Of a DNA stretch of 64,000 bases, positions 29,811 through 53,581 are shown piece by piece. Location: the NCBI RefSeq assembly GCF_000384215.1, contig NZ_KB913032.1, forward strand, positions 8,579,605-8,643,604. The letters run 5' to 3'. The position numbers and the translations under genes were made by a program. This DNA comes from Amycolatopsis alba DSM 44262. GTDB lineage: Bacteria; Actinomycetota; Actinomycetes; Mycobacteriales; Pseudonocardiaceae. The notes under the pieces are model-generated. The model worked only from the letters and a program-made list of their open reading frames with translations. It did not search any database and was not told the DNA's origin. Every line of letters starts with the position of its first letter. Position 1 is the stretch's first letter.

Positions 29811-30824
29811 TCAGTGCACCCGCCGGTCCTCCGCCGTGCCCCGGTACCGGATCGTCCACAGGCTGCGCCGGATGTAGGTACGCTGCAGCCACCGGTCGCG
29901 CCCGTTGTGCCGCGCGAAGAACTGCGACCGCGCGTGCAGGCCCTTCCGGTTGTTGATCAGCAGCGCCGTCCCCGGCTCCAGCTTGACCTGGTGCGCGACC
30001 TCGCGGCAGACCCGCTGCAGTTCCTCCAGCGCCTGCTCGGCCTCGACGGTCTCCCCCACCACGCCGTTGGCCGAGACCGCCACCTCCGGCGAGTCCGACG
30101 GCCCGGAGATGACCGGTACGAGGTCGGACAGCACGTCGGCGCCCTTGGCCACGTCACGCACGTAGCTGCCGGGCGCGTTGAGCCGGAACAGCGGGCGGCG
30201 CAGGACGTCGAGCACCTCCGGGTCCAGGGCGGCGGAGATGTCGCGGCCGTCGGCGTAGTAGGTGACGGCCTCCTTGTTCCCGTCCTGGCGGACACAGTTC
30301 AGCACCAGGAAGTCCGGATTGGACACGTCGTACCGGCCGAGTTCGTCATGCACGATGTCGTTGTGGAAGTTCAGGAACACGTGCGAACTCTGGTTGGTCT
30401 GGCTCCGCGCGCCCGCCGACACCGGGACGACGTCGTGCACCAGCCGCCCGCTCTTCTCGGTGGTGAAACCGACGGGCTCGCCGAGCAGCTGGCTCAGTCC
30501 CAAAAGGACGGTCTCGGCGACGAAGGTCTTCTTGTCCTTGCTGGGTTCCCCGTCGATCGGGGTCTCCGGCAGCTCCGGGTCCACCGGCAGGTTGCGCACG
30601 AGCGCGACGCCGGGGGTGTCGACGTGCCTGCCGAAGTCCAGGATCGTCTGCAGCTGGTCGACGGGCAGCCTCGAGAAAGCGACCCGGAGCATCGCCAGCG
30701 AACGGTCGATGTCGCCGACGGGGTCCGGGAAGGATCGCAGCTCGCCGCCGATGACGTCCCGGACCTCGTCGGTGAGCACGACCTCGGCGAAGGTGCCGAC
30801 TAGGGTTTCTTCCTTGCTGGTCAT
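29811..30824 (-). CDS. Fe(II)/2-oxoglutarate amino-acid hydroxylase (TauD/VioC-AsnO type)
   Basis: 337 residues, the size of the clavaminate-synthase-like group that hydroxylates the beta or other carbon of Arg, Asn or Lys. The facial triad is visible as H-x-D in LNFHNDIVHD (about 145-155) and the distal His in LLINNRKGLHARSQF, with the 2-oxoglutarate Arg following (QRTYIRR). Last gene of the left operon, 6 bases after the antiporter stop. With an O-carbamoyltransferase in the same operon, a plausible role is to install the hydroxyl that is then carbamoylated; the substrate is unknown. Confidence 0.85.
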   Translation of the reverse strand: MTSKEETLVGTFAEVVLTDEVRDVIGGELRSFPDPVGDIDRSLAMLRVAFSRLPVDQLQTILDFGRHVDTPGVALVRNLPVDPELPETPIDGEPSKDKKTFVAETVLLGLSQLLGEPVGFTTEKSGRLVHDVVPVSAGARSQTNQSSHVFLNFHNDIVHDELGRYDVSNPDFLVLNCVRQDGNKEAVTYYADGRDISAALDPEVLDVLRRPLFRLNAPGSYVRDVAKGADVLSDLVPVISGPSDSPEVAVSANGVVGETVEAEQALEELQRVCREVAHQVKLEPGTALLINNRKGLHARSQFFARHNGRDRWLQRTYIRRSLWTIRYRGTAEDRRVH

Positions 30825-30830
30825 GGTGTC

Positions 30831-32252
30831 CTATCTACTTTCCGCCGCCGCTGGACCGGCGGTCTTCTCCGAGTCCTTTTCGGACTTCTTCCCGAACTTG
30901 GCGATCAGGGTGAGCGCGGGGGCGGTGGCGATCGTCGAGACCAGCGTCATGATCACGAGCATCGCGAACACCGCCGGGCTGATCACCTTCAGCTGGAGAC
31001 CGACGTTGAGCACGACCAGTTCGGTCAGCCCGCGGCAGTTCATCAGCGCCCCGAGCGACAGCGATTCGCGCCAGCCGACGCCGGTCAGCCGGGCCGCCGT
31101 GGTACTGCCCGCCCATTTCCCGAACACCGCCACCGCCGTGACGGCCAGGGTCCACAGCCACATCGATCCGGAGCCGAGCAGGCTGAACTCGGTGTGCAGA
31201 CCGGTGTAGGCGAAGAACAGCGGCAGCAGCAGGGTGAGGGTGACGCTGCCGAGCTTCCCGGCGGCGCGGGCGACGACCGGGTCCTGCCTCGGCGCGATCA
31301 CGCCGAACAGGAAGGCGCCGAACAGTGCGTGGATGCCGATCTCGTTGGTGGCCAGGGCCGACAGCATGATCCCGCCGAGCAGGATCGCCAGGACCGCTGG
31401 CTCCGGCGCCCTGGCGAGCACCTTGGCCAGCAGCGGCCGGACGACATAGATCATCACCAGGACGAAGGCCAGGGTGAGCCCGACGGTCAGGAACACCTCC
31501 GACGGCGCACCGCCCTGACTCACGGCGACCACGACGGCCAGCAGGCACCACGCGGCGACGTCGTCGACGGCGGCGCACGTGAGCGCGAGCGCGCCCAGCG
31601 GGGTCTTCGAGATGCCGCGGTCGGTCAGGATCCTCGCCAGTACCGGGAACGCCGTCACGCTCATGGACACCGCGATGAACAGCCCGAACGCGAGGAAGCT
31701 GACGTCACCGCCGAAGGCCGGGTACATGCCGAGGGCGAGCACGATGCCGGAGACCATCGGCAGCGCGATGCTGACCTGGCTGACCGTCACCGCGGTGAAT
31801 CCGCGCCTCCGCACCGCGTCGACGTCGATCTCGGAACCGACCAGGTACATGAAGAAGATCAGGCCCAGCTGCGACAGGATGTTGATCGCCGAGACCACCC
31901 CGCTGGGGAACAGCCAGCCGAACGCGCCGGGCCAGACGATCCCGAACAGCGACGGCCCCAGCAGGATGCCCGCGACGATCTCGCCGATCACCGGGGGCTG
32001 GCCGAGCCGCCGGGCCAGCACGCCTGCCAGGTAGCAGGCGCCCAGGACCACCGGGAGCGCGACCAGCAGGCGCGCGTAAGTGTCGGGGCCGCTGCTCGCC
32101 GCCTTGGCCGCCGTGCCCGAGACCGGTTCGTAGGCCGAGCCCAGACCGAGCACCACCACGACGACCACCACGGGTACCGCGATCAGTACCGCCCCGACGA
32201 GGACCCGGCGCACCGTGGCGCGCCCGGTCCGCTCCCGCACAGCTGACTCCAT
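30831..32252 (-). CDS. CPA2-family cation/proton antiporter
   Basis: 473 residues from ATG 32252 (AAGGAG upstream). About 12-13 transmembrane helices; the family signatures are present (PPVIGEIVAGILLGPSLFG, LTCAAVDDVAAWCLLAV with the paired Asp of the ion site). Sits inside the biosynthetic operon between the hydroxylase and DDAH-like genes. Such antiporters in clusters are sometimes linked to export or self-protection; direct substrate export would be unusual and is unproven. Confidence 0.88.
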   Translation of the reverse strand: MESAVRERTGRATVRRVLVGAVLIAVPVVVVVVVLGLGSAYEPVSGTAAKAASSGPDTYARLLVALPVVLGACYLAGVLARRLGQPPVIGEIVAGILLGPSLFGIVWPGAFGWLFPSGVVSAINILSQLGLIFFMYLVGSEIDVDAVRRRGFTAVTVSQVSIALPMVSGIVLALGMYPAFGGDVSFLAFGLFIAVSMSVTAFPVLARILTDRGISKTPLGALALTCAAVDDVAAWCLLAVVVAVSQGGAPSEVFLTVGLTLAFVLVMIYVVRPLLAKVLARAPEPAVLAILLGGIMLSALATNEIGIHALFGAFLFGVIAPRQDPVVARAAGKLGSVTLTLLLPLFFAYTGLHTEFSLLGSGSMWLWTLAVTAVAVFGKWAGSTTAARLTGVGWRESLSLGALMNCRGLTELVVLNVGLQLKVISPAVFAMLVIMTLVSTIATAPALTLIAKFGKKSEKDSEKTAGPAAAESR

Positions 32253-32262
32253 CGAGTTCTCC

Positions 32263-33075
32263 TTACCCGGCACGCAATTCCAGCGTGCAGCATTTGACGC
32301 TGCCGCCTGCCTTCAGTAATTCGGACAAGTCGGCACCGATGGGTTCGAAACCGTGTTCCCGCAACTGTGCGGTCAGCCCGGTGGCCGCCTGCGGGAGCAC
32401 GACGTGCTTGCCGTCCGACACGGCGTTGAGCCCGAAGACAGCGGCGTCGCGTTCCGAGGCCAAGATCGCGTCGGGGTACATCTCCTTGAGCACCCGGCGG
32501 CTGTCTTCCGAGAACGCCTCCGGGTAATACATGACCGTGTCGTCGTCCAGCACGGCGAGCGCGGTGTCGAGGTGATAGTAGCGCGGGTTTATCAACGTCA
32601 GGCCGACGACGGAACAGCCGAAGAACTCGCGGGATTCGTTGTGCGCTTCGGGATTCGTGCGGAATCCGGTGCCGGCGAGGATCCGCTTCCCGGCGACGAG
32701 GTAGTCGCCTTCCCCCTCGTTGACCCACTGCGCCTGCCGGACGTAGCGGTACCCGTTGGCCCGGAACCACTCCAGATACGCGTCGGATTCACCGGCGCGC
32801 TGCGTGTGGTGGAACCGCGCGACGAGGACCTGCCCGTTGACCACGGTGGCGCCGTTGGCCGCGAACACCATGTCGGGCAGGCCGGGCACCGGTTCGAGGA
32901 GGTCGACGCGATGTCCGAGATCGACGTAGAGATCGTGCAGCCACTCCCACTGGGCGACGGCCAGCTCGGTGTACGTCGGTTTCTTCGGGTCCATCCAGGG
33001 ATTGATCGAGTACTCGACGTCGAAGTACGTCGGTCTGACCATCAGGTAATGCCGTTGAGTGGCTGTCCGTGACAC
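32263..33075 (-). CDS. DDAH/arginine-deiminase-like amidinohydrolase
   Basis: 270 residues from a GTG with GGAGGAAGC before it. Guanidine-modifying superfamily: PDMVFAANGATVV near residue 70, catalytic His region RYYHLDTALAVLDD and nucleophile Cys in GGSVKCCTLEL at the end. The family hydrolyses (methyl)arginine to citrulline or transfers amidino groups. Here the substrate is probably a guanidino intermediate of the pathway, or arginine to make a citrulline or ornithine building block. Which of these applies cannot be decided from sequence. Confidence 0.82.
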   Translation of the reverse strand: MSRTATQRHYLMVRPTYFDVEYSINPWMDPKKPTYTELAVAQWEWLHDLYVDLGHRVDLLEPVPGLPDMVFAANGATVVNGQVLVARFHHTQRAGESDAYLEWFRANGYRYVRQAQWVNEGEGDYLVAGKRILAGTGFRTNPEAHNESREFFGCSVVGLTLINPRYYHLDTALAVLDDDTVMYYPEAFSEDSRRVLKEMYPDAILASERDAAVFGLNAVSDGKHVVLPQAATGLTAQLREHGFEPIGADLSELLKAGGSVKCCTLELRAG

Positions 33076-33087: not shown

Positions 33088-34341
33088 CTATTTCTGGGTT
33101 TCGCTGAGTTTGACCTCGATCTTCCCGGCCAGGTCGTTCGCGTTGCGCATGGCTTCGTCGAAGGACGCGCCGAGCGCGCCGATGCCGCCGAAGATGTTGT
33201 TGCCGAGCGGCGGGCGCTTGATCAAGTCGCCCGGCTTCGCGAAGATCTTGAGGTAGTACAAGGCTTCCGACTCGTTCACCGCCGGCGGCACGTCGATCGA
33301 GGCGATGACCCCGCCGGGGCAGATCAGGCACATCGCGGCGGTGTGCAGACCGGTCGGGCTGAAGTGGCGGACGTCCGGCCGCACGCCGCGGGAAACGTCC
33401 ATGAGTCCCCGGATCGGGTCGTAGCCTGCCGAAAGCCGTGCCATGTGGTCGAGTCCCCCGCCGCCGGGGCGGACGGCGATCTCCAGCAGGAACGGTTTGC
33501 CCTGGTGGAACCGGACCTCGGCGTGCAACGCGCCGCGGGTGAGTCCTTGCGCCCGCACGCCGGCGGTCACCACGGCGTGCACCTCGGCCACCTGCTCGGG
33601 GGTGAGCGACGTGGGCGCGTGGTGCACGTCGTCGTCGAAGGTCTCGCCTTCCGAGGTGACCCTGTCCACAATGGACCCCAGGTAGACCTCGTCGTCCCAG
33701 GCGAGTGCCTCGATGAGATGTTCGTGACCGTCCAGAAAGGACTCGACGAGCAGGCCGTGCGGACCGAGGTCCAGCCCCTCGGCCTCCATGTTGTACCAGG
33801 TCATCCTGTCGATGCCCTCGCGCGCCTGTGCGTAGCGCTCTCGCATCTTCTCCTCGTCGTCGACGCGGAAAACGAAGTTGCTGGCCGCGCCGAGCGTCGG
33901 CTTCAGGATCACCGGGTAGCCGAAGTCCCCGGCCGCCTGCAACGCCGCGTCGAGGTCTTCGACGAACCGGAAGTCCGGATGCGCCGCCCCGCCCTTTTCG
34001 TGCGCCTGCCGCATGATCAGCTTGTTCCGGCTCGTCCGCGCCGCGTCCACGCCGATACCGGGCAGGCCTAGCGCCTCGGCCACGGCGGCGACCAGGACGA
34101 CGCCTGACTCCGAGAAGGTGAGCACGCCTTCGAAGGACTCCTCCGCGTGCCAGGCCTTCGCGTGCCGGATCAGGTCGTCGATGTGGTTGCTGCCGGCGAT
34201 CCGGTAGCGATCCGACGGCCAGAGATCCTCGGTCCCGATCCCGTTGAGCACGTACAGCACCCCGCCGAAGTCCTCGATCTGCTGGTACCGGGGCAGGTAG
34301 TAGTAGGAGTTCTGGCTGGCTTCCAGCGCGAGCAGTTTCAC
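33088..34341 (-). CDS. ATP-grasp ligase 1
   Basis: 417 residues. The GTG at 34341 overlaps the stop of the FAD oxidase gene (GTGA). ATP-grasp fold: RNKLIMRQAHEKGG, the ATP-binding strand YPVILKPTLGAASNFVF, HGLLVESFLDGHEHLIEAL and the metal/catalytic strand KPFLLEIAVRPGGGGLDH. The group ligates amino acids through acyl phosphates (dapdiamide/bacilysin-type ligases). One of three in the cluster, expected to form an amide or hydrazide bond. Confidence 0.88.
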   Translation of the reverse strand: MKLLALEASQNSYYYLPRYQQIEDFGGVLYVLNGIGTEDLWPSDRYRIAGSNHIDDLIRHAKAWHAEESFEGVLTFSESGVVLVAAVAEALGLPGIGVDAARTSRNKLIMRQAHEKGGAAHPDFRFVEDLDAALQAAGDFGYPVILKPTLGAASNFVFRVDDEEKMRERYAQAREGIDRMTWYNMEAEGLDLGPHGLLVESFLDGHEHLIEALAWDDEVYLGSIVDRVTSEGETFDDDVHHAPTSLTPEQVAEVHAVVTAGVRAQGLTRGALHAEVRFHQGKPFLLEIAVRPGGGGLDHMARLSAGYDPIRGLMDVSRGVRPDVRHFSPTGLHTAAMCLICPGGVIASIDVPPAVNESEALYYLKIFAKPGDLIKRPPLGNNIFGGIGALGASFDEAMRNANDLAGKIEVKLSETQK

Positions 34342-35495
34342 GACACACCTCGTAGGGCAGGACGGAGCGGATGGACACCGGACGCGCGCACGAGCGGCCG
34401 GTCGAGCGGTTCGAGCCCGGTCGGGACCGGGTCGGCGCCGGTCAGGCGCGCGGCCAGGGACCGGGCGATCAGCGGGGCGAACTTGAAGGACGAGCCGCCG
34501 CACGCCGCGTAGGACAGGACCCGGTCGCCGAGGACGGCGAGCAGCGGGCCGAGGGTGGAGCGCCGGGCGAGATAGTGGCAGTCACGGGTGTCGATCAGCC
34601 AGTCCCGGCGGAAGCCGGGGATCAGCTCGCTGAACGTGTCGATCAGGTGCTCACGCCACCACGGGGGCGAGACGGCGCCGCCGACCTCGTCGACGACCCG
34701 GCAGGCGCTCGCGGCGCTGAGCTTCAACGGCGTCCCGGCGACCGGCGGCACCAGCCACGCGCCGCCGTCGGAGCCGAGCGAGGTGATCGCCGGTGTCGCC
34801 GCCCACGCGCCGGCGTCGGCGGGCGGGACGTCGCAGTACAGCATCGTCTGCCGGTGCAGCACGAGTTCCCGCGCCAGCGCGGGGGCCAGCAGTTCACGCG
34901 ACCACGGGCCCGCCGCCAGCAGGACCGCGTCGCCCCGCAGGATCCCGCCGTCGGCCAGCCGGACCTCGGCCCGGTCGGCGTCGACTCCGATCACCTTGCG
35001 GTGCGGGCGCAGTTCCGCGCCGGCGTTCCACCGCAGCCACCCGGCGCAAGCCGTCAGTACCCGATCGGCGAGCAGGACCCCGGCGTGCGACTCGAAGACG
35101 GCGCCGGTCCCTGGAACGAATCCGGCGTGCGGGAACTCGGCGGCTAGCTCGCCCGCTCCGAACACCTCCGCCTTGGATCCGGCCGCGTTCAGCAGGTCCC
35201 GCGCGGCCGTCGCCTCGGCCGCCGGGATCGCGGTGAGCGCGCCGGATTGTTCGTAGAAAGCGGTGGACAGCAGATGCTCGATCTCGATCCACGCGTGATG
35301 CGCGCCGACGGCGGCCGCCGTGGTGGCGAGGTCACCGGGGTGCAGCGCACGCAGCACGCGATGACGATCGAACGAGGTGGCACCGGTGAACGGGATGTCC
35401 GACTGGTCGGCGAGCACCACTTCGTGCCCGGCGGACACACACTCGACGGCGGTCAGCAGCGAGATGACACCGCCGCCCGCGAACACGACTCGCAT
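34338..35495 (-). CDS. FAD-dependent amine oxidase (DAO/glycine-oxidase fold)
   Basis: 385 residues. N-terminal dinucleotide fold VVFAGGGVISLLTAVECV (third Gly replaced by Ser), ADQS acidic strand end, and the C-terminal FAD contact SYAACGGSSFKFAPLIARSL typical of D-amino-acid oxidase, sarcosine oxidase and related enzymes. In triacsin biosynthesis an enzyme of this class (Tri27) cleaves N6-(carboxymethylamino)lysine, the product of the hydrazine synthetase, to give hydrazinoacetate. The presence of the complete partner set in this cluster makes the same role here likely. A strong ribosome binding site (GGAGGGGGAAGGCC) precedes the ATG. Confidence 0.82.
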   Translation of the reverse strand: MRVVFAGGGVISLLTAVECVSAGHEVVLADQSDIPFTGATSFDRHRVLRALHPGDLATTAAAVGAHHAWIEIEHLLSTAFYEQSGALTAIPAAEATAARDLLNAAGSKAEVFGAGELAAEFPHAGFVPGTGAVFESHAGVLLADRVLTACAGWLRWNAGAELRPHRKVIGVDADRAEVRLADGGILRGDAVLLAAGPWSRELLAPALARELVLHRQTMLYCDVPPADAGAWAATPAITSLGSDGGAWLVPPVAGTPLKLSAASACRVVDEVGGAVSPPWWREHLIDTFSELIPGFRRDWLIDTRDCHYLARRSTLGPLLAVLGDRVLSYAACGGSSFKFAPLIARSLAARLTGADPVPTGLEPLDRPLVRASGVHPLRPALRGVS

Positions 35496-35596: not shown

Positions 35597-37165
35597 TCAG
35601 GAAGAGCGCGGGGTCACGAACGTGTCGTTGATGACGTAGCCGTCGAGGCCGTACGTCTCCCCGTACTCGATGAGATCACTGGTGCGGTTGAGGAAACCGC
35701 GGCCGTTGTTGTTCAGCGAGGTGTTGCACAGCACGCTGAACCCGGTCTGCTCGCGGAACGCCTCGAGCAGGTCGGTGATGCCTGCGTTGCGTTCCCGCGT
35801 CACCGTCTGGGTGCGCGCTGTCCCGTCGACGTGCGTGATGGCCTTCAGCTCGTCGGAAGTGACGTGGTTGAAGTACAGCATGTACGGGTCCTGCACCGAG
35901 CCGACGAACCACTTCGGGGCGTCGGACTCCAGCGCGATCGGGGCGATCGGCCGGTATTCCTCACGGCGCTTGATCTTGTTGAGCCGCACGGTGGTGTCCA
36001 CGGTGAACGGCGCGGCCAGGATCGACCGGTTGCCCAGCGCCCGCGGGCCCATCTCGTACCGGCCGCGCGCCCAGCCGATGATGTTGCCGTCCTTGATGTA
36101 CTTCGCGACCTCGCTCGCCACGAGCGGCCGGGTCTCGTACTTGGCCGGGTCCGGGATGACGTCTTCGACGAAGCCCTCTCCCGCGTAGACGTCCCAATCG
36201 ATGGTCGCCTGTCCGGTGTAGAACCATTGCGCGTCGATGGCGGTGCCCAGCGCGGAACCGCTGTCGTTGGGGCACGGCGGCACGAACACCGACGAGAACA
36301 GGCCGCTCTCGCGCCACAACCGGTTCCAGTCGCAGTTCAGGCCGCAACCGCCGGAGATCAGCAGCGGCAGGCCTTCGGTCAGGTTCTTCTCCGCGTAGTC
36401 GTGGAACCGGTTGAAGATCGCCTGCGAATGCTTCGCCGCGGCGTTGCGGTATTCCTGTGACCAGACGCCCGCGTTGTACAGATGGGACCAGGACATCTCC
36501 TCTTTGGACAGACCGAGGATGATGCCGTCGCGGTCGAGGATGAAGTCGATGGTCTTCTGCTCGTCCGGGGTGAGCGGACCCGGTTCGGCGAATCCGGTCA
36601 GCGCCATCTGCTTGCCGGCGTCGTTGAACCGGAACTTCCCCTTGCCGAGCGGGAAACCAGGGTCCGCCAGCGCGAAAAGATACGCGTACTTCGCGCCGGG
36701 GTCGGCCAGCACATGCTTCAGGTGGGTGGCCTCACCGCGTTCGTCGATCCGGTAGAAGTCCCCGATGTTCCCTTCCCACACCAGGGAGTAGTACGCCTGG
36801 CCGGGGGCGGCCGGGGCCATCCCGAGGGAGGTGTAGATATGCGAGCGCTCGTGGGTGGAGGAGAAGTAGCGCACGTCCTTGCCGAAGAACTTGCCCGCTT
36901 CGTCGGAGATCGCGCCTTCGCCGACACCGAAGTATCCGGTGCGGGAAGGGGGTTCCACCGAGAACTCGCCCTTGACCCAGCCACCGAGCGCGACCACGTC
37001 GGGCTGCTTGTCGAGCATGCCCGCAGCGCGCGCCATCAGCTCGCCGGTGATCCGGTCGTAGCGCGGGTAGTTGTCCTTTTCCGACTCCAGCGCGAACAGC
37101 AGCTTGCCGTCCTCGATGGCCACGATCCCGCCATCGTGGCCCTCTTTCATCGACAGAATCAGCAT
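35597..37165 (-). CDS. O-carbamoyltransferase (NodU/CmcH family)
   Basis: 522 residues, slightly shorter than typical NodU/TobZ proteins (about 560-600) but with both parts: an N-terminal Kae1-like ATPase domain (MLILSMKEGHDGGIVAIEDG; metal-binding His in STHERSHIYTSLGMAP; PLLISGGCGLNCDWN) and a C-terminal YrdC-like domain (VGSVQDPYMLYFNHVTSD, SVLCNTSLNNNGRGF). These enzymes transfer carbamoyl from carbamoyl phosphate to a hydroxyl through carbamoyl-AMP. It is the first gene of the left operon, 57 bases downstream of the bipartite promoter element at 37222. It predicts an O-carbamoyl group in the product. Confidence 0.9.
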   Translation of the reverse strand: MLILSMKEGHDGGIVAIEDGKLLFALESEKDNYPRYDRITGELMARAAGMLDKQPDVVALGGWVKGEFSVEPPSRTGYFGVGEGAISDEAGKFFGKDVRYFSSTHERSHIYTSLGMAPAAPGQAYYSLVWEGNIGDFYRIDERGEATHLKHVLADPGAKYAYLFALADPGFPLGKGKFRFNDAGKQMALTGFAEPGPLTPDEQKTIDFILDRDGIILGLSKEEMSWSHLYNAGVWSQEYRNAAAKHSQAIFNRFHDYAEKNLTEGLPLLISGGCGLNCDWNRLWRESGLFSSVFVPPCPNDSGSALGTAIDAQWFYTGQATIDWDVYAGEGFVEDVIPDPAKYETRPLVASEVAKYIKDGNIIGWARGRYEMGPRALGNRSILAAPFTVDTTVRLNKIKRREEYRPIAPIALESDAPKWFVGSVQDPYMLYFNHVTSDELKAITHVDGTARTQTVTRERNAGITDLLEAFREQTGFSVLCNTSLNNNGRGFLNRTSDLIEYGETYGLDGYVINDTFVTPRSS

Positions 37166-37221: not shown

Positions 37222-37257
37222 GTTGACCGGAAGCGCCGCGCGGCTCGAACAATCAAC
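37222..37257 (-). promoter_or_regulatory. cluster promoter/operator element, copy 1
   Basis: Plus-strand GTTGACCGGAA, 14 bases, GAACAATCAAC. Both blocks are identical to those at 53637-53673, and both sites lie 56-57 bases upstream of a minus-strand operon start. The outer GTTGA/TCAAC bases form an inverted repeat. It overlaps the stop codon of the regulator gene, so the regulator's 3' end carries the promoter of the next operon. Confidence 0.65.
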
Positions 37258-38864: not shown

Positions 38865-38906
38865 GCGGAAATTCACCCCCTTGGTGGCACCGGATAGGGT
38901 GCGCCC

Positions 38907-45884: not shown

Positions 45885-47632
45885 GCCTCGCCCTCCGCTG
45901 TGTCGTCGATGTAGTACCAGTTCTCGGGGTTGATCAGGCCGTACGGGTTGATCGGCGAGAATCCGCGCAGGTTGCCCGCGACCTCGAACAGCCGTCGCGG
46001 GAACGTCGGCATGAAGATCACCGGCGCCTGGTCGGCGATGTACTCCTGGTACTCGTACAGCGCTTCGAGGCAGTCGGTGGTGACCGTCTTCGCGATCAGC
46101 TCGTCCGCCCTGGCGTCCCGGTAGTTGCTGAAGTTGCACGCGGCGCCGCTCTGGAAGAGGTTCTCGCCGGTCGGGTAGTTGTAGACCCAGCCGCCGCCCC
46201 AGCAGGACAGCTCCCACATCCGCTTCTCACCGGGGCCGTCCTCGGCCACCAGGACCGATCCCATCACCTCTTCCAGGCGGATCTCGATCCCGGCCTTGGC
46301 CGCGTCGTCCCGGAACTGCGCCATGAGCCGCGCCAGCGAGGGCCGCCCTTCCCAATAGCGCAGGGAGAAACTCAGCTCGGTGCCTGCCGGGATGCCTTCG
46401 CCTGCTTCCTCGGGCCGCACGCACACCGCGGGGGAAGCGCTGACATCCCAGCCGTTGTCGGCGAGTAACTGCCGCGCCTTCTCCAGGTCGAACGGCCAGA
46501 ACCCGCCGCGTTCGGCGATCTTCGGCGAGACCAGGTCACTCTTGGGCAGCACCGGGATCGACCCGGTCTGACTCCAGCCGTAGCCCTGGTATACCTCGCG
46601 GGCCCCGTACTCCTGGTCGAAGCAGCTCTGGAGGGCCTGCCGGACGTAAGGCTGCCGGATCATGTTCCCGGCGACGGTCGGGTTGCTGAAGTTGACCGCC
46701 ATGAAGTTGATGTTGAACAGGATCTGCGGTTCCAGCTGGAAGCCGTCGCCGAGCGGGTTCGGCCCGCCCTTGGTCGGGTCGCCGTCCGGCTGGACACCCA
46801 TCCCCGGCGGCAGGAAGCCGACCTGGACGTCCCCGGATTGCAGCAGTTCGTACTGCTGCTCGTCCGACGTCGTCGAGACCTGGCGCAACTCGTCGAGATG
46901 CGGCGGGTTGGGTCCGCTGTAGTGCTCGTTCGGGACGAAGGTGACGACACCTTCCTCGGTGTAGCTCTTGAGCCGCCACGGTCCGTTGACGACACTCCAC
47001 ACCGGACTTTCGGCCCAGCGGGTGCGGTGCGAGTTGTCCTCCTCGACGACGTCGCCGTTCTCCGCCATCAGGAATTCGTAGACCGCCTCGGCCTGCTCGA
47101 TGTCGTGTGTCGCGTCGGCCGGGCCGTCCGCGGTGCGGTCCCAGGCCTTCGGCATCGGCGTGATCATGGTGAGCTGGTTCAGCAGTACCCAGTTCTTCGA
47201 GTACGCCTTGTCGAAGGTGAAGCTGACCTTGTCGTCGTCGACCTTCGCGAACGACACCAGGTTGTCCGGGAAGTAGCCCTCGGAGTAGGCACCGAACCTC
47301 GGCCCCTTCACCTTCAGCATGTTCATCCAGAAGATGACGTTGTCCGCGCAGAGCGTCTCGCCGTTGGACCACTTCCACGGTTTGATCCGGACCGTGCAGG
47401 TGCGGCCGGTCTCGTCCCACACCGGCTCTTCGCCGACACTGAGGTCCCAGTCGATCTCCGGCGCGCCGTCGCGGCCCAGCCAGTACAGCGGCCGGTACAT
47501 CAGCATCTGGAACTCGTAGAGGCTCCGCACGCCGAAGCGTTCGCCAGGGGTGAAGGGGAAGATCACCGCGGGCGGGAACCCTGGCAGGCAGGCCCAGGTC
47601 GCGACGCCGCCCTTGATCGGCTTGTCCGTCAT
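45881..47632 (-). CDS. peptide-binding (SBP_bac_5) protein without a signal peptide
   Basis: 583 residues, full length for an oligopeptide/nickel-type solute-binding protein: YRPLYWLGRDGAPEID, IKPWKWSNGETLCADNVIFW, VVNGPWRLKSYTEEG, YVRQALQSCFDQEYG, NLRGFSPINPYGLINPENWYY. The N-terminus MTDKPIKGGVATWACLPGF has no hydrophobic core and no lipobox, and no in-frame upstream start supplies one; permease and ATPase genes are absent. It should therefore stay in the cytoplasm, where it might bind the product or an intermediate. The clavulanic acid cluster also needs oppA-type proteins, but those carry export signals. Confidence 0.88.
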   Translation of the reverse strand: MTDKPIKGGVATWACLPGFPPAVIFPFTPGERFGVRSLYEFQMLMYRPLYWLGRDGAPEIDWDLSVGEEPVWDETGRTCTVRIKPWKWSNGETLCADNVIFWMNMLKVKGPRFGAYSEGYFPDNLVSFAKVDDDKVSFTFDKAYSKNWVLLNQLTMITPMPKAWDRTADGPADATHDIEQAEAVYEFLMAENGDVVEEDNSHRTRWAESPVWSVVNGPWRLKSYTEEGVVTFVPNEHYSGPNPPHLDELRQVSTTSDEQQYELLQSGDVQVGFLPPGMGVQPDGDPTKGGPNPLGDGFQLEPQILFNINFMAVNFSNPTVAGNMIRQPYVRQALQSCFDQEYGAREVYQGYGWSQTGSIPVLPKSDLVSPKIAERGGFWPFDLEKARQLLADNGWDVSASPAVCVRPEEAGEGIPAGTELSFSLRYWEGRPSLARLMAQFRDDAAKAGIEIRLEEVMGSVLVAEDGPGEKRMWELSCWGGGWVYNYPTGENLFQSGAACNFSNYRDARADELIAKTVTTDCLEALYEYQEYIADQAPVIFMPTFPRRLFEVAGNLRGFSPINPYGLINPENWYYIDDTAEGEA

Positions 47633-47662: not shown

Positions 47663-48922
47663 TCAGGCGGCGGTCGCCTCGAGAACCTCGGCCGGCTGCT
47701 TCTTCTCCTGCGCCGACAGCGGTTTCGCCAGACTGAAGTAGGTGCCGATCACGATCGCGCCCTGCAGGATCGCCAGCCCCCAGAACGCGTAGGGCACGGT
47801 GGTCGCGTCGGCCAGCGCGGACAATCCGACCGTCGCGCCGACACCGAGCCCGAGGCCGACGGCCTGCGTGCCGCCGAAGATCCGGCCGACCCGGTCCTCC
47901 GGGCTCGCCCGCATCAGCAGGGTGCGGGCGGCGATCCGGCCCTGGGCGAAGCAGAACCCGGCGAACGGGATCGCCGCCATCAGCGCGATGTAGTGCACCG
48001 GCTGGATCGCGAGGCAGATCAGGTTCCCGAGCGTGCCCAGCACGGCCAGATGGATGCCCTTGAACCGCTTGCTGACCTTGCCGTACGCGGCGGCGCCGAC
48101 GATGAAGCCGACCCCGGCCAGCGCGTCGACCACGCCGATCATCCACGCGCCCTGGCCGAAGGTCTGCAGGATCAGCGTGGTCAGGATGACGTTGGCGACC
48201 ATCAGGCCGATGTTCCCGTTGGCGTACAGCAGCGCGAGCCGTTTGATCGGCTGGTGCACCGGGGCTTCGACCGGCGCCGACGCGTCGGCGGTCGCGGTCT
48301 CCACGGCCACCGGCGCCTTGGCGGGCTTGCGGCCGATCCCGTAGACGAGCACGGCGGAGACGACGAAGGTCAGCGAGTTGAAGATGAACAGCGGCGTCGC
48401 GCCGAACCAGATCACCAGGAATCCCGCGAGCGAGGACGCGAGCAGCATGCCTGCGTTGCTCGCCATCTCGAAGTGCGAGTTGAACTTCCCGAGCCGCTCG
48501 TCGCGGATGCGTTCCTTGATCAGGCCGTTGCTCGCGGGCATGAACAACGCCGCGGTGCAGGCGAGCATGAAGTTCGCTATGTAGGACCCCAGGTTCGCCG
48601 GGCCGCCGATCCACAGCCAGACCGGCAGGGCGAACGCGGTCAGCGCGCTGACCAGGTCCGCGGCGACGCACAGCATCCGCCTGTCGACCTTGTCGACCAG
48701 CTTGCCGAACAGCAGCGCGAGCGCGACCTGCGGGATCGACACCGCGATGAACAGCCAGCCGACGGCGAGGGTGGTCTGCTCGGCGTGGAAGACCAGGATC
48801 GCGGCGGCGGTGATCTGGAACGCGTTGCCCGCCGTGGTGACGAAGCCCGCCGGGACCAGCAGGCGTTCGGCGAGCCGGGAACTCCGGACCGCGTCGGCGG
48901 GAAGGGAACTGTCGAGTGACAT
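47663..48922 (-). CDS. MFS transporter
   Basis: 419 residues, about 12 transmembrane helices, with the loop motif LLFGKLVDKVDRRM between helices 2 and 3. Belongs to the DHA/enterobactin-exporter-like (MFS_1/MFS_3) group. Lies between the MetRS-like and binding-protein genes with 6- and 30-base gaps, so it belongs to the operon. Most likely the product exporter and a self-resistance element. Confidence 0.88.
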   Translation of the reverse strand: MSLDSSLPADAVRSSRLAERLLVPAGFVTTAGNAFQITAAAILVFHAEQTTLAVGWLFIAVSIPQVALALLFGKLVDKVDRRMLCVAADLVSALTAFALPVWLWIGGPANLGSYIANFMLACTAALFMPASNGLIKERIRDERLGKFNSHFEMASNAGMLLASSLAGFLVIWFGATPLFIFNSLTFVVSAVLVYGIGRKPAKAPVAVETATADASAPVEAPVHQPIKRLALLYANGNIGLMVANVILTTLILQTFGQGAWMIGVVDALAGVGFIVGAAAYGKVSKRFKGIHLAVLGTLGNLICLAIQPVHYIALMAAIPFAGFCFAQGRIAARTLLMRASPEDRVGRIFGGTQAVGLGLGVGATVGLSALADATTVPYAFWGLAILQGAIVIGTYFSLAKPLSAQEKKQPAEVLEATAA

Positions 48923-48928: not shown

Positions 48929-50548
48929 TCAGACCTCGCTCGTCGGGGGGAATTCCAGTGATGGCACGGCGAACGCCGTGGTGTGCGTGACGTCGAAGGC
49001 GGCCGCGTCGATCCGAAGGTCGAACCCGCCCGCTTCGGCGGCACGCGCGGCGAGGTCGATCAGGATCGGCGAGGCGCAGCCGATCAAGGCCCGCAGTTCG
49101 AGGAAGAGGTCGCCCAGCGCGCCGCGGAGCACCTCCTGGTCGAGATTGCCTTTCAGGGTGCGTTCGGTGGCCGCGCCCAGGCGCCCGACGTGCTGCACGA
49201 TCAGATCGGCGGCCCGGCTGAGGCTGAAATCCTCGAGTTCGTAGTTCAGGGCGAACCGGGAGACCATCGCCGCCGCGCGTTCCGTGGCCTCGACCGACAC
49301 CGGGAGCGAGCCGTTCTCCCCGCCGACCTCGGCGGTGAGTTTGGCCAGGGTCTCGGCGAGTTCGTTCCAGGGCGCGACGAGCCGCTCCCCCGCGACCTTC
49401 TCCAGCGCGGCGCGGGAGAAGTTGGTCCTGGCGAACTCGGGGGCGGTGAGATTGAGGTGGAACCGCGCGATGTCGCGAGGCACTTCGGCCGCGAGTTCGC
49501 GGGCCCAGACCACGTGTCCCTTGCTGGTGGAAAACTTCTCGTTCTCCAGCTCGTAGAACTCGTTGACGAGCAGGGTGTCCGGGAGGACGTAACGGCCTTC
49601 GAGGGCCATCAGCTCGGCGACGTGGACGACGCCCCAGGTGAACAGCGGATCGAACCCCATGAACACCACGACCCGCGCGTCGTTCTCCGCGAGCCACGCG
49701 TCGTCGTCGGCGGCCTTCGGTTTTCCGTTGCGCCGCAACGCGTACTCGGTGCAGTACATCGAGGCGGGCATCCCCTCGACCCACGCGTTGAGCCGCTGCC
49801 CCGGCGTCTGCAGGAACGGCGCCGGCAGCCCCCATTTCACCGGGTACGTGATCGCGAAGTCCGGCAACGGCCCGGCCAGCAGTTCCCGCATCAGGCCGAG
49901 CACGTGCGGCCGCCACGACGGGCCGCGTTCCTCGTAGTAGGCGAGGAGCTGTTCGCGGTACTCCGAGACGGGGAAGACCATGATCTCCGTCTCGCGGTAG
50001 GTCACCTCGTCGGCCGGGTCGAGCACCGAATAGGGCTCGATGAGCGCGTCGAAGTCGATCGGATGCCCGCAGCCCTCGCAGAACCCGCCGCGGCTGTCGG
50101 CGAGACACGTCGGGCAGCCGCCGCCGACGAACCCCTCGACCAGGAACTCGCCCTTGCTCTCGCTGTAGGGCAGCCGCACCTTGCGCAGCCGAAGCTTTCC
50201 CTTGTCGTACAAGCGTTTGACGTAGTCATGGACGAGCGCCCTGTACCCGTCGTCGGTCGGCGAGAACCCGTCGACCTCGACACCCATCGCCTTGAACGTG
50301 CGCTGGATGTCCTCGGTCGACTGCTTCACCAGCTCGGGTGGTGTCGACCCGACCCTGGCCGCGCTGGTGACGAGATAGGTCTGGCTGTCGTCGGTGCAGG
50401 AGGCGAACACGCCCTCGCGGCCCGCCGCGCGCAGGTAGCGCCGGTGCACGTCGGCGCCGAGATACGGTCCGGCGATATGCCCGATGTGCAGGTCCCCGTT
50501 GGACGTCGGGGGGCCGCCGATGATCACCACCGGTCTCGTGTCTGCCAT
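48929..50548 (-). CDS. MetRS-like subunit of a hydrazine synthetase
   Basis: 539 residues from ATG 50548, two bases after the cupin stop and behind GAGGAG. Class I methionyl-tRNA-synthetase core: GPPTSNGDLHIGHI (HIGH), Cys4 zinc knuckle CPTCLADSRGGFCEGC, KMSKS variant ENEKFSTSKGH, and a helical C-terminal domain. Next to a cupin and a lysine N-hydroxylase it matches the cupin-MetRS enzyme (Spb40/Tri28 type) that links glycine to N6-hydroxylysine and rearranges the ester to an N-N bond. In those the two domains are fused; here they are separate genes. Role by family and context is strong; a housekeeping MetRS is unlikely. Confidence 0.88.
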   Translation of the reverse strand: MADTRPVVIIGGPPTSNGDLHIGHIAGPYLGADVHRRYLRAAGREGVFASCTDDSQTYLVTSAARVGSTPPELVKQSTEDIQRTFKAMGVEVDGFSPTDDGYRALVHDYVKRLYDKGKLRLRKVRLPYSESKGEFLVEGFVGGGCPTCLADSRGGFCEGCGHPIDFDALIEPYSVLDPADEVTYRETEIMVFPVSEYREQLLAYYEERGPSWRPHVLGLMRELLAGPLPDFAITYPVKWGLPAPFLQTPGQRLNAWVEGMPASMYCTEYALRRNGKPKAADDDAWLAENDARVVVFMGFDPLFTWGVVHVAELMALEGRYVLPDTLLVNEFYELENEKFSTSKGHVVWARELAAEVPRDIARFHLNLTAPEFARTNFSRAALEKVAGERLVAPWNELAETLAKLTAEVGGENGSLPVSVEATERAAAMVSRFALNYELEDFSLSRAADLIVQHVGRLGAATERTLKGNLDQEVLRGALGDLFLELRALIGCASPILIDLAARAAEAGGFDLRIDAAAFDVTHTTAFAVPSLEFPPTSEV

Positions 50549-50550
50549 GG

Positions 50551-50916
50551 TCACGCCAGCTCCTCGTGCCGGGCGGCGAACTTCGCCGTCATGTCGGAGT
50601 CCCACCAGATCGCGTACATCTCGAAGTCCTCGGCGCCGTCGTTGAGGATGCGGTGCTCGGTGCCGGGCCGGTGGAACTCGATGTCACCCGGCCGGAAGGC
50701 GCGGCGCTCTCCCCCGGACTCCACGACCGCCTCACCGTTGACGGCGATGAAGAGCTCGTACTCGTGGTGGGAGTGCGCACCCGTCGCGCCGTGCGCGGGC
50801 ACCGTGACCCATGCCCCCTCGAACGGCGCGTTCAGCGCCGCCCACGGCAGCAGCCGCTGGCCGTAGGCGCCGTTCTCGAAGACCATCTTTTCCCGCTCCA
50901 GCGGACGGATCTCCAT
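50551..50916 (-). CDS. cupin subunit of a hydrazine synthetase
   Basis: 121 residues, one cupin barrel: motif 1 GAHSHHEYELFIAVNGEAVV with metal-ligand His residues and Glu, motif 2 FRPGDIEFHRPGTEHRILN with the last His. In fused homologues this zinc cupin catalyses the N-N bond-forming rearrangement of the glycyl ester of N6-hydroxylysine. The gene lies between the N-hydroxylase and the MetRS-like gene, and its stop is two bases from the next start (TGA-CC-ATG), so the two halves are made together. Standing alone it is the most unusual part of the cassette. Confidence 0.85.
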   Translation of the reverse strand: MEIRPLEREKMVFENGAYGQRLLPWAALNAPFEGAWVTVPAHGATGAHSHHEYELFIAVNGEAVVESGGERRAFRPGDIEFHRPGTEHRILNDGAEDFEMYAIWWDSDMTAKFAARHEELA

Positions 50917-50939: not shown

Positions 50940-52271
50940 TCAGCGGGTGGCGACAACGGGGTCGGCGGTGTCGGCGGTGTCGGCGTCCGACGTCGGCTGC
51001 GGCGGCACCTCGGGGGTCTCGCCGCGATGGGCGAGGATGTCCTGCAGGATGTCGTTGGCACGCGGGGCGAGGACGCTCAGCAACGAGTCCGCGATCCCGT
51101 GCGTCGCTTCGTTGACGCCCTGGAGGTACACGGCCGCGGTGGCGGGCTGGTCGATCTCCAGCCGGTAGTCGCGGGTCACCTTGATCTCCGAGAGTCCGAT
51201 CGATTTGGCGATCTCCTGGACCATCCTCGGCATCTCCGGGGAGAAACCGGTGCCGAGCAGGACGAGATCGGTGCGCAGTTCCTGGGTCTCGCCGGTGCGC
51301 CGGTCGGTCAGTTCCAGCACGATCTCGTCACCCTCGTCGCGGGCGTCCGTGATGTCGCTCATCGTGACCATGTTCAGCCGGGAACGACCGGAAAGACGGT
51401 CCAGGTAGATCGAGCGGTAGAGCGCGTCCATCGTGCCCGGCGCCAGCCCGGAGTAGTTGGTGTGGTGCATCTCCTTGAGCATCTGCTCACGCGCTTCCGG
51501 TCGCGCGTCGAAGAATTTGTCCACATGGGACGGGAAGAACAGCTCGTTGTTGAACTTGCTGCTCTCGTAGTAGTTCAGGCCGATCGAGCGCATCACCATG
51601 GTCGGCTTGCATTCGGGCAGGTCCCGCTGCACCGCGCCGAACAGCTCCGCCGCGCTCTGCCCGGCGCCGATCACCGCGACACGGTACGGAAGGTCCTTGC
51701 GCAGCTTGGCGATCCTCGGCAGATACTGAGTACTGTGGATGACGCGGTCCTGATCCACCGTCCGGAGCAGGTCGGGGATCCGCGCGTCCCGGCCGGCGCC
51801 GACCACCAGGTACCGGCTGCGGATCGTCTCGCCGTCGGCGACCCTGGTGTCCCAGCCGGTCAGCGTCCCGTCCGTCCACACGGGAGTGATGTCGAGGCAT
51901 TCCCGGCCACGCTGCAGATCCACCAGTGAAAGCGAATCGGCCGTCCACTTGAGATAGTCGGCGAGCTCGACCCGGTACGGGACGAAGCTGCCCATGTTCA
52001 CGAACTCGTTGAGCCGGTTCGTCGCGTGCAGGTAGTTGAGGAACGAGAAGCGGCTGCGCGGGTTGCGCAGGGTCACCAGGTCCTTGAGGAACGAGACCTG
52101 CGACAGCGCCTCCGGCAGCAGCATGCCCCGCTGCCAGGAGACCTCCTCGTCGCGTTCGAGCAGGACCGAATCGCGGGCCAGGCCGGGCGCGAGCTCCTCG
52201 AGCGCCACGGCGAGTGCCAGGTTGGACGGTCCTGCTCCGACTGCGAGAAGCTCGACATCACGGTTCGCCAT
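50940..52271 (-). CDS. L-lysine N6-monooxygenase
   Basis: 443 residues, flavin N-hydroxylase family (IucD/SidA/PvdA). FAD motif LAVGAGPSNLALAVAL, substrate region WQRGMLLPEALSQVSFLKDLV and FSFLNYL, NADPH motif VAVIGAGQSAAELFGAV, NNELFFPSHVDKFF and the closing LLGTGFSP. In this context it makes N6-hydroxylysine for the hydrazine synthetase; ornithine is the alternative substrate for the family. The C-terminal tail is Thr/Ala/Asp-rich with a short repeat (DTADTAD) from tandem GTCGGCGGT units. Placed 23 bases before the cupin gene. Confidence 0.92.
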   Translation of the reverse strand: MANRDVELLAVGAGPSNLALAVALEELAPGLARDSVLLERDEEVSWQRGMLLPEALSQVSFLKDLVTLRNPRSRFSFLNYLHATNRLNEFVNMGSFVPYRVELADYLKWTADSLSLVDLQRGRECLDITPVWTDGTLTGWDTRVADGETIRSRYLVVGAGRDARIPDLLRTVDQDRVIHSTQYLPRIAKLRKDLPYRVAVIGAGQSAAELFGAVQRDLPECKPTMVMRSIGLNYYESSKFNNELFFPSHVDKFFDARPEAREQMLKEMHHTNYSGLAPGTMDALYRSIYLDRLSGRSRLNMVTMSDITDARDEGDEIVLELTDRRTGETQELRTDLVLLGTGFSPEMPRMVQEIAKSIGLSEIKVTRDYRLEIDQPATAAVYLQGVNEATHGIADSLLSVLAPRANDILQDILAHRGETPEVPPQPTSDADTADTADPVVATR

Positions 52272-52324
52272 TTGTTTGCTCCGCCATCGTTGTGAGTGCT
52301 TGGAAGGTGTTCTGCGGTGCCCGG

Positions 52325-53581
52325 TCAGCCACCGGCGGCCACCGAGGGCAGCAGGGGGTGCGCGGTCAGCCGGACCTGGGCCATGGCCTTGTCCAGCACC
52401 ACCTCACAGTCGTCGGGATCACGGCCCGCGCAGATCACGTACGCGTGCCGCGAGATGAACTCCGCCGGCGGCAGCCGCATCCGCGCCCCCGGCTCGACGA
52501 GCGCGTCGGCGGTGAGAATCCCGTTGTCCCGCATGGAACCCGGCACGGACACGGACTCGACGACACAGTCCTGCTTCGGATAACCGAACCGCACCCCGAC
52601 CCACCGCGGCTCGGCCTCGTGCGGGATGTGCGGATGCAGGCCGAGCGCGACGTCGACCGCGGCCGCGCCAGGGTCGATCCCGGTCGCGAACCGGGCGAGC
52701 AACGGGATCAGATCCCCGCCGAGCCTGCCGTTGATCTCCACGATCACCGGTCCGCGCTCGGTGAGCTTGAGTTCGGTGTGGGTGATGCCGTACCGGAAGT
52801 CGATCGCGCTGTGCGCGCGGGCCAGCGTCGAGCGGAGCGCCGGGTCCGCGAGCAGCTCGTCCGCGGAGCTCACCAGATGGCCGAGTTCCTCGAAGTACGG
52901 GTGCATGCCGACCGTCTTGTGCGCCACGAACATCGGCGTGTACTCACCGTCCACGACGGCACCGTCCACACTGATCTCGGGTCCGGTCAGGTACTCCTCG
53001 ACCAGCGCCCCGCCCTGGTAGGCGGGAGAGCCACCGAAGCTGGCGTCCTCCGCGGTCCGGAACGCCTTCCGCACCGCCTCGCCGTCTTCCGCGAAACTGA
53101 CGCCGATGCTGGCCCCGCCCCCGCGCGGCTTGACCACGACCGGATACCCGATCCGGTCGGCCACCCGGACCGCCTGCTCCTCGTCGTGCACGAACCCGAA
53201 GTCCGGCTGCGCGACCCCGGCCGCGGTGAGCGTCCGCCGGTTGAGCCACTTGTCCCGGCACCCCTCGATCGCGGAGATCCCCGCACCCGGCAGGCCGAGC
53301 TCGTCCGCGACGTGCGCCGCGGTGACGATCAGCGCCTCGTCCCACGACACCACGCCGAGCACCGGCGTCTTCGCGTTCACCGCGCGGGCCGCGGCCAGTA
53401 CGGCGTCACGATCCTGCAGGTCCAGCACCGTGGCGCCGGTGATGTAGCGCTCCTGCCAGGTCGGTTCGGCCCCGTTGAACAGCCACAAGGGATGCCGGTG
53501 CCCGGCCGACGCCAACAGGTACTCCCGGTACGGCCGCATCCCGCAGCCGATCACCAGGACAACACCCTCCGCTGAGCTCAT
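52325..53581 (-). CDS. ATP-grasp ligase 3
   Basis: 418 residues from ATG 53581, directly behind GGGAGAGGGA; longer starts would run through the promoter. ATP-grasp fold: WLNRRTLTAAGVAQPDFGFV, YPVVVKPRGGGASIGVSF, ALVEEYLTGPEISVDGAVV, THTELKLTERGPVIVEINGRLGGDLI. Close in style to the L-amino-acid ligases (BacD/DdaF type). First gene of the right operon, 56 bases after the bipartite element. Expected to form an amide or hydrazide between pathway amino acids. Confidence 0.88.
   Translation of the reverse strand: MSSAEGVVLVIGCGMRPYREYLLASAGHRHPLWLFNGAEPTWQERYITGATVLDLQDRDAVLAAARAVNAKTPVLGVVSWDEALIVTAAHVADELGLPGAGISAIEGCRDKWLNRRTLTAAGVAQPDFGFVHDEEQAVRVADRIGYPVVVKPRGGGASIGVSFAEDGEAVRKAFRTAEDASFGGSPAYQGGALVEEYLTGPEISVDGAVVDGEYTPMFVAHKTVGMHPYFEELGHLVSSADELLADPALRSTLARAHSAIDFRYGITHTELKLTERGPVIVEINGRLGGDLIPLLARFATGIDPGAAAVDVALGLHPHIPHEAEPRWVGVRFGYPKQDCVVESVSVPGSMRDNGILTADALVEPGARMRLPPAEFISRHAYVICAGRDPDDCEVVLDKAMAQVRLTAHPLLPSVAAGG

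Follow-up and report, generated by a model that had tools for sequence, protein, structure and literature searches.

A set of about 20 genes on the minus strand of Amycolatopsis alba DSM 44262, spanning positions 53581 to 29811 of the window (the whole 64,000-nucleotide stretch of DNA analysed here), most likely makes a small, secreted, peptide-like compound that carries an N–N bond and is coupled by ATP-grasp ligases (probability about 0.7). N–N bonds are rare in biology. All genes counted in the set lie on the minus strand except where stated.

Gene content and borders of the locus

The sequence-only reading had placed an N-monooxygenase, a cupin, a MetRS-like enzyme and an FAD oxidase in one cluster with glutamate mutase, ligase and tailoring genes, and protein-family matches located all of these enzymes at their coordinates, in a single orientation. 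Beyond that list, the set encodes an FMN/glutamate-synthase-like protein, an asparagine synthetase A, an SBP_bac_5 protein, MFS and CPA2 proteins, and a 109-aa predicted beta-barrel protein. The claim that the cluster works without NRPS or PKS also held: ATP-grasp ligases are present, and no NRPS/PKS domain (condensation, adenylation, ketosynthase) was detected by Pfam in 50 frames scanned across the window, a scan that left out a few short predicted frames. Most of the gene set recurs in Amycolatopsis, Kibdelosporangium, Actinokineospora and Dactylosporangium, and genes of the operon are coupled by start/stop overlaps of 4 bases; because of these overlaps and the conservation in other genera, the grouping is not due to chance. 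That two unrelated clusters, one for a hydrazine and one for 3-methylasparagine, came to lie side by side by accident is very improbable: 67 of 80 loci with the 3-methylasparagine cassette had no MetRS-like match in the flanks retrieved, and hydrazine sets without this cassette also exist among the compared clusters, but mutS and the gene for ligase B overlap by 4 bases and the arrangement is conserved across several genera.

At one border, the frame at 29321–29797 was present in none of the 14 compared clusters; a DUF222/HNH gene at 53897–55150 lies beyond the other. Overlapping ORFs at 38873 and 39855 and a long form at 40274–40996 were dropped as gene models. The set also includes an NB-ARC regulator-like gene (37253–38719; PF00931; 59–92% in 4 of 12 compared clusters), and a conserved protein of no assigned family is encoded on the plus strand (38907–39614; no Pfam match; 51–89% in 5 of 12), for which the structure model was poor (pLDDT 46).

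The hydrazine-forming core and its candidate substrates

The gene for a flavin N-monooxygenase, predicted to act on the omega-amino group of lysine or ornithine (50940–52271; PF13434, E 4.5e-85), adjoins the cupin and MetRS-like genes. The metal-binding cupin (50551–50916; Cupin_2), which would carry out the N–N forming step, has the metal site His, His, Glu, His, with the equivalents of H65, E69 and H103 conserved; its D63 position is His, as in the azaserine-type cupin. The closest solved structures are 4rd7 and 4mv2, neither with a named function, and the cupin is also a relative of 5uqp, which is RHS1 (39.6 bits). The third gene (48929–50548; PF09334) encodes the putative stand-alone MetRS-like hydrazine synthetase partner. 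In the phylogeny proposed as a check by the sequence-only reading, here a tree of 21 rows, this protein was separated with 100/100 support from housekeeping-type MetRS, represented by the genome's own copy (L112), that of Kibdelosporangium (L099) and E. coli MetG. The DAO-family FAD oxidase (34338–35495; PF01266; 39–89% in 11 of 12 compared clusters) belongs to the same Pfam family as the oxidase of the azaserine-type cluster (L106), and BLASTP between the two gave no match at E 1e-4, which leaves it uncertain whether this oxidase would release a hydrazino acid by cleavage. Taken together, these genes are well supported by sequence comparison as a hydrazine-synthetase set, which is predicted to form the N–N bond.

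Among solved relatives, the monooxygenase ranked the ornithine enzyme PvdA first (266.8 bits), followed by the lysine enzyme MbtG (247.7 bits), whereas a lysine-type control from an RHS1-type cluster ranked PvdA seventh; the ranking and the control do not decide between lysine and ornithine. In one alternative, which we regard as a substantial minority possibility, the hydrazine would be built on N5-hydroxyornithine and remain uncleaved, a DDAH-type enzyme would supply ornithine, and the DAO would oxidise the N–N unit to a hydrazone or an N-heterocycle. The PvdA ranking, the dedicated DDAH-type gene copies at both hydrazine loci of the genome and the divergence of the DAO from the azaserine-type oxidase are consistent with this route; however, MbtG scores close to PvdA, the Deinococcus and Pantoea clusters keep the core and have no DDAH gene, and NCBIfam assigns the hydrolase as a dimethylargininase rather than an arginine dihydrolase, so that it would yield citrulline. 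A PvdA-type monooxygenase might also serve a hydroxamate in a siderophore cluster, but this is barely credible, since siderophore synthetase and ferric uptake families are absent from the gene set and the cupin and MetRS-like partner are kept.

The pocket of the MetRS-like enzyme was unlike those of the glycine-type and the glutamate-type references and resembled those of homologues from Pantoea, Klebsiella and Deinococcus plasmids. It differed from L106, the single glycine-type reference (32% identity), at 6 of 9 positions, which we take to be substrate-pocket sites, in a comparison that has no same-substrate control for permitted variation; a related Kribbella-type subtype differed from the window at 6–7 of the same nine, which weakens the case against glycine. 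We consider glycine and glutamate unlikely as the second amino acid. The pathway named by the sequence-only reading, in which N6-hydroxylysine and glycine would give hydrazinoacetic acid as for s56-p1, triacsin and azaserine, shares its enzyme classes with the window but is doubtful on account of these pocket differences, the hydrazonoacetyl genes missing from the set and a monooxygenase only 29% identical to its L106 counterpart. The hydrazine-synthetase set of that four-enzyme route stands, whereas glycine is unproven, and so is lysine, because an ornithine enzyme heads the ranking for the window monooxygenase but not for the lysine-type control.

The known systems resemble the window in part. 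The azaserine, s56-p1 and triacsin clusters share the monooxygenase, the MetRS/cupin functions and a DAO-family oxidase (PMC10445470, PMC13061610, PMC11705231), whereas the window set lacks genes for a GNAT, an adenylase, a carrier protein, a C45 peptidase and an NRPS of the kind described in the accessible portions of those papers, and its pocket is unlike that of L106. In R. jostii RHA1, the stand-alone MetRS/cupin pair of the RHS1 cluster has been shown to yield a hydrazine (PMC8664883). The RHS1 accession recurs in a plasmid cluster of Rhodococcus sp. DK176, and this copy resembles the window in its N-monooxygenase, its separate cupin and MetRS-like proteins and its nearby ATP-grasp genes. 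However, the window MetRS-like enzyme is just 27% identical to that of the RHS1 system, for which glutamate is the amino acid in the accessible text (PMC8664883), a saccharopine dehydrogenase is found there and a DAO here, and the 21 kb displayed for the DK176 cluster contain no 3-methylasparagine cassette. The albofungin afn cluster, likened by its published description, likewise has a separate MetRS-like protein (Afn8), cupin (Afn9) and lysine N-hydroxylase (Afn18), but there an asparagine-synthase-like enzyme is described as transferring free hydrazine to a polyketide (PMC11705231).

Amino-acid supply, coupling and tailoring

Four contiguous genes (40600–44607) form an slgE1/E2/E3/slgZ-type cassette, as in streptolydigin, a likeness drawn at the level of gene families alone. 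They encode a cobalamin-binding S-type glutamate mutase subunit (44146–44607; D-A-H-T-W-N motif), the E-type subunit MutE (42842–44149; PF06368), an AsnRS-like, SlgZ-type asparagine synthetase A (41850–42845; NF005052 428.5 bits, cut-off 368) and an SlgE3-type FMN/glutamate-synthase-like protein (40600–41853; PF01645). Both mutase subunits score under the NCBIfam cut-offs (PRK02261/TIGR01501 for S, TIGR01503 for E); MutE is the sole PF06368 copy of the genome, and six glutamate mutase substrate residues are conserved in 80/80 rows (the window and 79 loci). The cobalamin motif is DxHxxG. In mutase S its D and H are kept and Asn replaces Gly in 75 of 79 rows, the others being three without the D column and one not covered. 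This Asn and the mutase scores under cut-off count against the proposed pathway. Loci picked by AsnA contained the GltS-like gene in 80/80 cases, mutase E in 79/80 and mutase S in 78/80, and an archaeal AS-A was among the top solved relatives of the asparagine synthetase A. This cassette suggests that the amino-acid unit is probably 3-methylasparagine; 3-methylaspartate, as first proposed, fits the glutamate mutase and is refined by the asparagine synthetase A. In streptolydigin, the equivalent genes for 3-methylaspartate supply, the glutamate-synthase-like SlgE3 and the AsnRS-like SlgZ are described as feeding a tetramate (PMC5357945), whereas in the window the cassette adjoins ATP-grasp ligases and the hydrazine set.

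Three ATP-grasp amino-acid ligases are encoded: A (52325–53581; PF13535; 42–95% in 9 of 12 compared clusters), B (44604–45884; PF13535 and LAL_C2; 6 of 12) and C (33088–34341; PF13535 and LAL_C2; 51–97% in 11 of 12). A TauD-type Fe/2OG oxygenase (29811–30824; PF02668) is of the AsnO/clavaminate-synthase type, with AsnO (2og5) as best solved relative and GntD and Cs1 as best models, both under cut-off. Among the loci examined, the NodU/CmcH-family O-carbamoyltransferase (35597–37165; PF16861 and partial PF02543) is restricted to Amycolatopsis and Kibdelosporangium cluster 1. The DDAH-superfamily guanidine hydrolase (32263–33075) passed the dimethylargininase model NF045659 (451.8 bits, cut-off 300). 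Its nearest solved structure is Sll1336 (ArgZ); the arginine dihydrolase assignment drawn from it was weakened by NF052232 (207.2 of 450 bits). Transport genes encode an MFS exporter (47663–48922; PF07690; 35–93% in 6 of 12) and a CPA2-type antiporter (30831–32252; PF00999; 30–91% in 8 of 12). The SBP_bac_5 protein (45881–47632; PF00496) has no evident signal peptide and is predicted to be cytosolic, and neither a hydrophobic N-terminus nor a signal peptide was found in 20 relatives. The 109-aa protein (40274–40603; 48–99% in 9 of 12) is modelled as an 8-stranded beta-barrel (pLDDT 93), which is at best avidin-like (Foldseek E 2.2e-3, with no match at E 0.001 or better).

From the gene content and order, their conservation, the conserved catalytic residues and the position of the MetRS-like enzyme apart from the housekeeping type, we infer a product, an order of steps and substrates for the ligase-coupled compound. 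The monooxygenase would hydroxylate ornithine or lysine at its omega-amino group; the MetRS-like enzyme would adenylate a second amino acid and link it to the hydroxylamine as an ester, which the cupin would then rearrange to a hydrazine. The DAO-type oxidase would cleave or oxidise this hydrazine, most likely to an alpha-hydrazino acid. Glutamate mutase and asparagine synthetase A, with the FMN protein in support, would provide 3-methylasparagine, and ligases C, A and B would couple it with the hydrazino acid and one more residue, which may be ornithine or citrulline supplied by the DDAH-type enzyme. The Fe/2OG enzyme may hydroxylate 3-methylasparagine or a basic amino acid, and the carbamoyltransferase may cap the resulting hydroxyl, both substrates being guesses. 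The MFS and CPA2 proteins would serve export or protection, while reactive intermediates may be kept in the cytosol by the beta-barrel and by the binding protein that has no signal peptide. A pyridazine product of the pyridazomycin type was dropped because the carbon count did not fit.

Relatives and a possible modular family

The monooxygenase, cupin, MetRS-like enzyme, oxidase and ligase C were all found by tblastn in 8 of 12 related clusters, among which the 3-methylasparagine, DDAH/beta-barrel, hydroxylation and carbamoylation modules are variable. Even the core varies, as the genome's second hydrazine cluster has no ligase C and the Pantoea DAO was not found by tblastn. In a 396-genome sample of the phylum, with few candidates scored per genome, ligase C was matched at E 1e-120 in its own genome only, suggesting that close relatives are rare. 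We tentatively propose, at somewhat less than even odds, a mobile family of non-NRPS hydrazino-peptide clusters, modular in make-up, with a shared core and swappable modules, in which cytosolic binding proteins would act as carriers or catalysts for N–N intermediates. Its core would be the N-monooxygenase, cupin, MetRS-like enzyme, DAO and ligase C, with a range that extends from Amycolatopsis to plasmids of Deinococcus and Pantoea, and its modules 3-methylasparagine, DDAH with beta-barrel, AsnO-type hydroxylation and carbamoylation. MetRS-like pockets are closely alike in members from three phyla, and the solute-binding-protein versions, predicted to be cytosolic, would come from two unrelated binding-protein families.

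The statement that no named compound is known for this gene set agrees with our search, which found no product in the openly accessible literature. "Undescribed" is too strong for the class, because neighbourhoods of paralogous MetRS were described in 2010 (PMC2922099), and the enzyme family and related neighbourhoods were published then and in 2021. The 2010 neighbourhoods share with the window a cupin, a lysine N-monooxygenase, ATP-grasp and peptide-binding proteins and dimethylargininase, and a Met-Lys peptide was proposed for them, whereas glutamate mutase, AsnRS-type asparagine synthetase and carbamoyltransferase are unmentioned in the accessible part of that survey (PMC2922099).

The hydrazine cluster family of the window appears to depend on ATP-grasp ligases. 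As far as the accessible text describes them, the clusters of the MetRS/cupin enzyme family that have been characterised yield products that are carrier-bound, nucleosides or polyketides (PMC11705231, PMC13061610), or else the dipeptide s56-p1. With Pantoea and Deinococcus providing a natural series of simpler relatives, the product may be deduced by subtraction, and the family is a manageable one in which to explore why signal-less binding-protein folds occur in biosynthetic operons.

Setting and class of the cluster

The cluster comprises 20 genes (53581 to 29811), 19 of them on the minus strand, and lies in a host genome of 9.81 Mb assembled as one contig. Many neighbouring genes overlap by 4 bases (45884/45881, 44607/44604, 44149/44146, 42845/42842, 41853/41850, 40603/40600, and 34341/34338). 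The left-flank genes have no evident link to the cluster; positions 4049-7681 encode an nSTAND1/WD40 protein of 1210 aa. The right flank (56858-63899) holds a propane-monooxygenase-like set (Phenol_Hydrox, Fer2 reductase, amidohydrolase, FeS_assembly_P, alcohol dehydrogenase, and Cpn60).

Peptide-ligase pathways centred on paralogous MetRS, with a cupin and a lysine N-monooxygenase, were predicted in the available text of a 2010 survey, which also recorded ATP-grasp ligases, peptide-binding proteins, and dimethylargininase nearby (PMC2922099). A 2021 paper then proved hydrazine chemistry for other family members (PMC8664883). Since these two studies cover the class, and neither, as far as their available text goes, names a product for the window gene set, the class of cluster is already known and the architecture is new. 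The sequence-only reading had called the cluster undescribed, which holds for the architecture but not for the class; its statement that no named compound corresponds to the gene set agrees with the literature searches.

Predicted hydrazine core and probable 3-methylasparagine cassette

The window cupin is related to RHS1 (5uqp, 39.6 bits), which was demonstrated to convert an O-aminoacyl hydroxylamine to a hydrazine (available text of PMC8664883), and has equivalents of RHS1 H65, E69, and H103. The N-monooxygenase is 29% identical to its counterparts in the glutamate-type (L093) and azaserine-type (L106) reference loci. Among solved proteins it scores best against PvdA (Orn, 266.8 bits), followed by MbtG (Lys, 247.7), SidA-type enzymes (Orn, 229-234), and then KtzI (222.5); by contrast, a desferrioxamine lysine enzyme, a putrescine enzyme, and MbtG all ranked above PvdA for the L093 enzyme.

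In a tree of 21 rows, where both references were flagged as long branches, the window MetRS-like protein splits with full support from the housekeeping-type MetRS of its own genome (L112), Kibdelosporangium L099, and E. coli MetG, and so does not group with housekeeping MetRS, in keeping with the sequence-only reading. We compared nine positions that form the pocket in E. coli MetRS structures (13, 14, 16, 254, 257, 258, 261, 298, and 302, E. coli numbering). Differences from the window numbered 0 in Kibdelosporangium-1, 1 each in Actinokineospora and Dactylosporangium, 2 each in Pantoea, Klebsiella, and Deinococcus, 4 in Streptomyces BHT-5-2, 5 in the second copy of the own genome, 6-7 in the Kribbella/Kibdelosporangium-2/MAG subtype, 6 in L106 (labelled azaserine-type from a gene order that agrees with the azs table, not from a recorded product), and 8 in L093. 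The window pocket would thus seem unlike that of either the glycine or the glutamate reference, a leaning rather than a proof because there is one reference each and the pocket varies this widely among the window protein's own relatives; candidate substrates include alanine, serine, and tyrosine as well as other amino acids.

The cassette (40600-44607, minus strand) includes an asparagine synthetase A that scores above its curated cut-off and whose 21 closest relatives are 95-98% identical, the named ones being Amycolatopsis. Among the best 80 of 223 asparagine synthetase A relatives found in genome_contigs, the FMN/glutamate-synthase-like gene accompanies 80/80, mutase E 79/80, and mutase S 78/80; the two loci without some of these genes sit on contigs of ~4 kb. 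A MetRS-like match lies near the cassette in 13 of these 80 loci at fetched flanks of at most 10 kb, and in Kribbella catacumbae also once the flank was extended, four other Kribbella-type loci being covered at fetched flanks only. Two large proteins neighbouring the cassette in other loci, the two tested, are NRPSs. Six substrate residues of glutamate mutase, namely Y181 and five named in the available text of PMC10947579, are retained in 80/80 rows. The cobalamin motif of mutase S reads D-[A/S]-H-x-W-N in 75/79 rows, while three rows cover only H-x-W-N and one covers none. By gene families, the cassette is the same kind of gene set as that of streptolydigin, in which slgE1-E2-E3 supply 3-methylaspartate for the tetramate and the AsnRS-like SlgZ is also present (PMC5357945, available text). 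Where the sequence-only reading proposed a 3-methylaspartate unit, we infer 3-methylasparagine as the end product of the cassette.

Comparison of related clusters

Twelve clusters and the two references were compared by tblastn (E 1e-6), with flanks of varying size and with MAG_L028 and MAG_L051 cut by contig ends. Ligase C, MetRS-like, cupin, and DAO genes were each present in 11/12 clusters, the N-monooxygenase and DDAH-type genes in 10/12, and the complete five-gene core (ligase C, MetRS-like, cupin, DAO, and N-monooxygenase) in 8/12. The beta-barrel, SBP_bac_5, and ligase A genes were found in nine clusters each, CPA2 and the cassette in eight, MFS and ligase B in six, Fe/2OG (Streptomyces copy 35%) and the plus-strand ORF (38907-39614) in five, the regulator in four, and the carbamoyltransferase in two. 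Of the cluster genes, the Streptomyces sp. BHT-5-2 plasmid is missing only the cassette, ligase B, regulator, and carbamoyltransferase. The core is accompanied by three ligases in Deinococcus ficus and by one in Pantoea ananatis, whose oxidase is assigned to the DAO family by Pfam only. Compact hydrazine-type sets lie on plasmids of Pantoea ananatis and Klebsiella variicola (L089 and L108; MetRS-like 49% and 47% to the window's).

The Kribbella/Kibdelosporangium-2 subtype (L020/L102 and L046/L104) has a P450 together with two N-monooxygenase genes, and lacks counterparts of the window's Fe/2OG, ligase B, and carbamoyltransferase. A protein that carries a PP-loop-like GGGKDS motif and matches no Pfam family (L046:459-1955, L051, L102, and L080) adjoins the cupin in this subtype and accompanies the cassette in Streptomyces griseofuscus. 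In Kibdelosporangium banguiense, a MetG-type MetRS gene (L099:4356-5561; G010 C1:7253040-7254563) lies ~1.1 kb past the Fe/2OG gene of cluster 1; because another MetRS-type match lies at C1:3189147 of this genome, the L099 gene may be either an extra copy for self-protection or no more than the housekeeping one.

The SBP_bac_5 protein starts near a conserved WAC segment, and a hydropathy test, which is not a signal-peptide predictor, found a strongly hydrophobic stretch within 40 residues to either side in 0/20 relatives (21 rows, L020 and L102 being the same gene), with starts uncertain as some frames remain open far upstream. Its gene lies directly behind ligase C in L046 and Kribbella; in Pantoea and Deinococcus, this position is taken by an unrelated binding-protein family (PF13458, above cut-off in Pantoea and just below in Deinococcus), and these proteins, judged by eye, have no clear signal peptide.

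DDAH-type genes and frequency in the family

A second hydrazine-type locus lies in the own genome (L113, G000 C1:845000-864000). It holds MetRS-like, monooxygenase, cupin, beta-barrel, DDAH-type, ligase A- and B-like, DAO, and DUF6875 genes; ligase C and the cassette were not found there by tblastn (E 1e-6). Of the three DDAH-type genes in the genome, the first is the window's; the one in L113 is 75% identical to it, and the third, located elsewhere, 56%. The gene travels with the clusters, since copies from clusters of other genera (63-78% identical) are closer to the window's than is the general copy of its own genome. The window enzyme is predicted to be a dimethylargininase by NCBIfam and Sll1336-like by nearest structure. 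The 109-aa beta-barrel gene co-occurs with the DDAH gene in nine of the ten DDAH-bearing clusters, the exception being MAG_L051, which is cut by a contig end. In Dactylosporangium siamense, an asparaginase gene (L017:12317-13573) follows the beta-barrel gene.

Ligase C was detected in 16/80 genomes of the genus sample at E 1e-60, with at least 94% identity in 15 of those 16 (own included), and a MetRS-like protein in 52/297 genomes of the family sample at E 1e-100. In the family, then, hydrazine-type sets occur commonly and the window's set does not.
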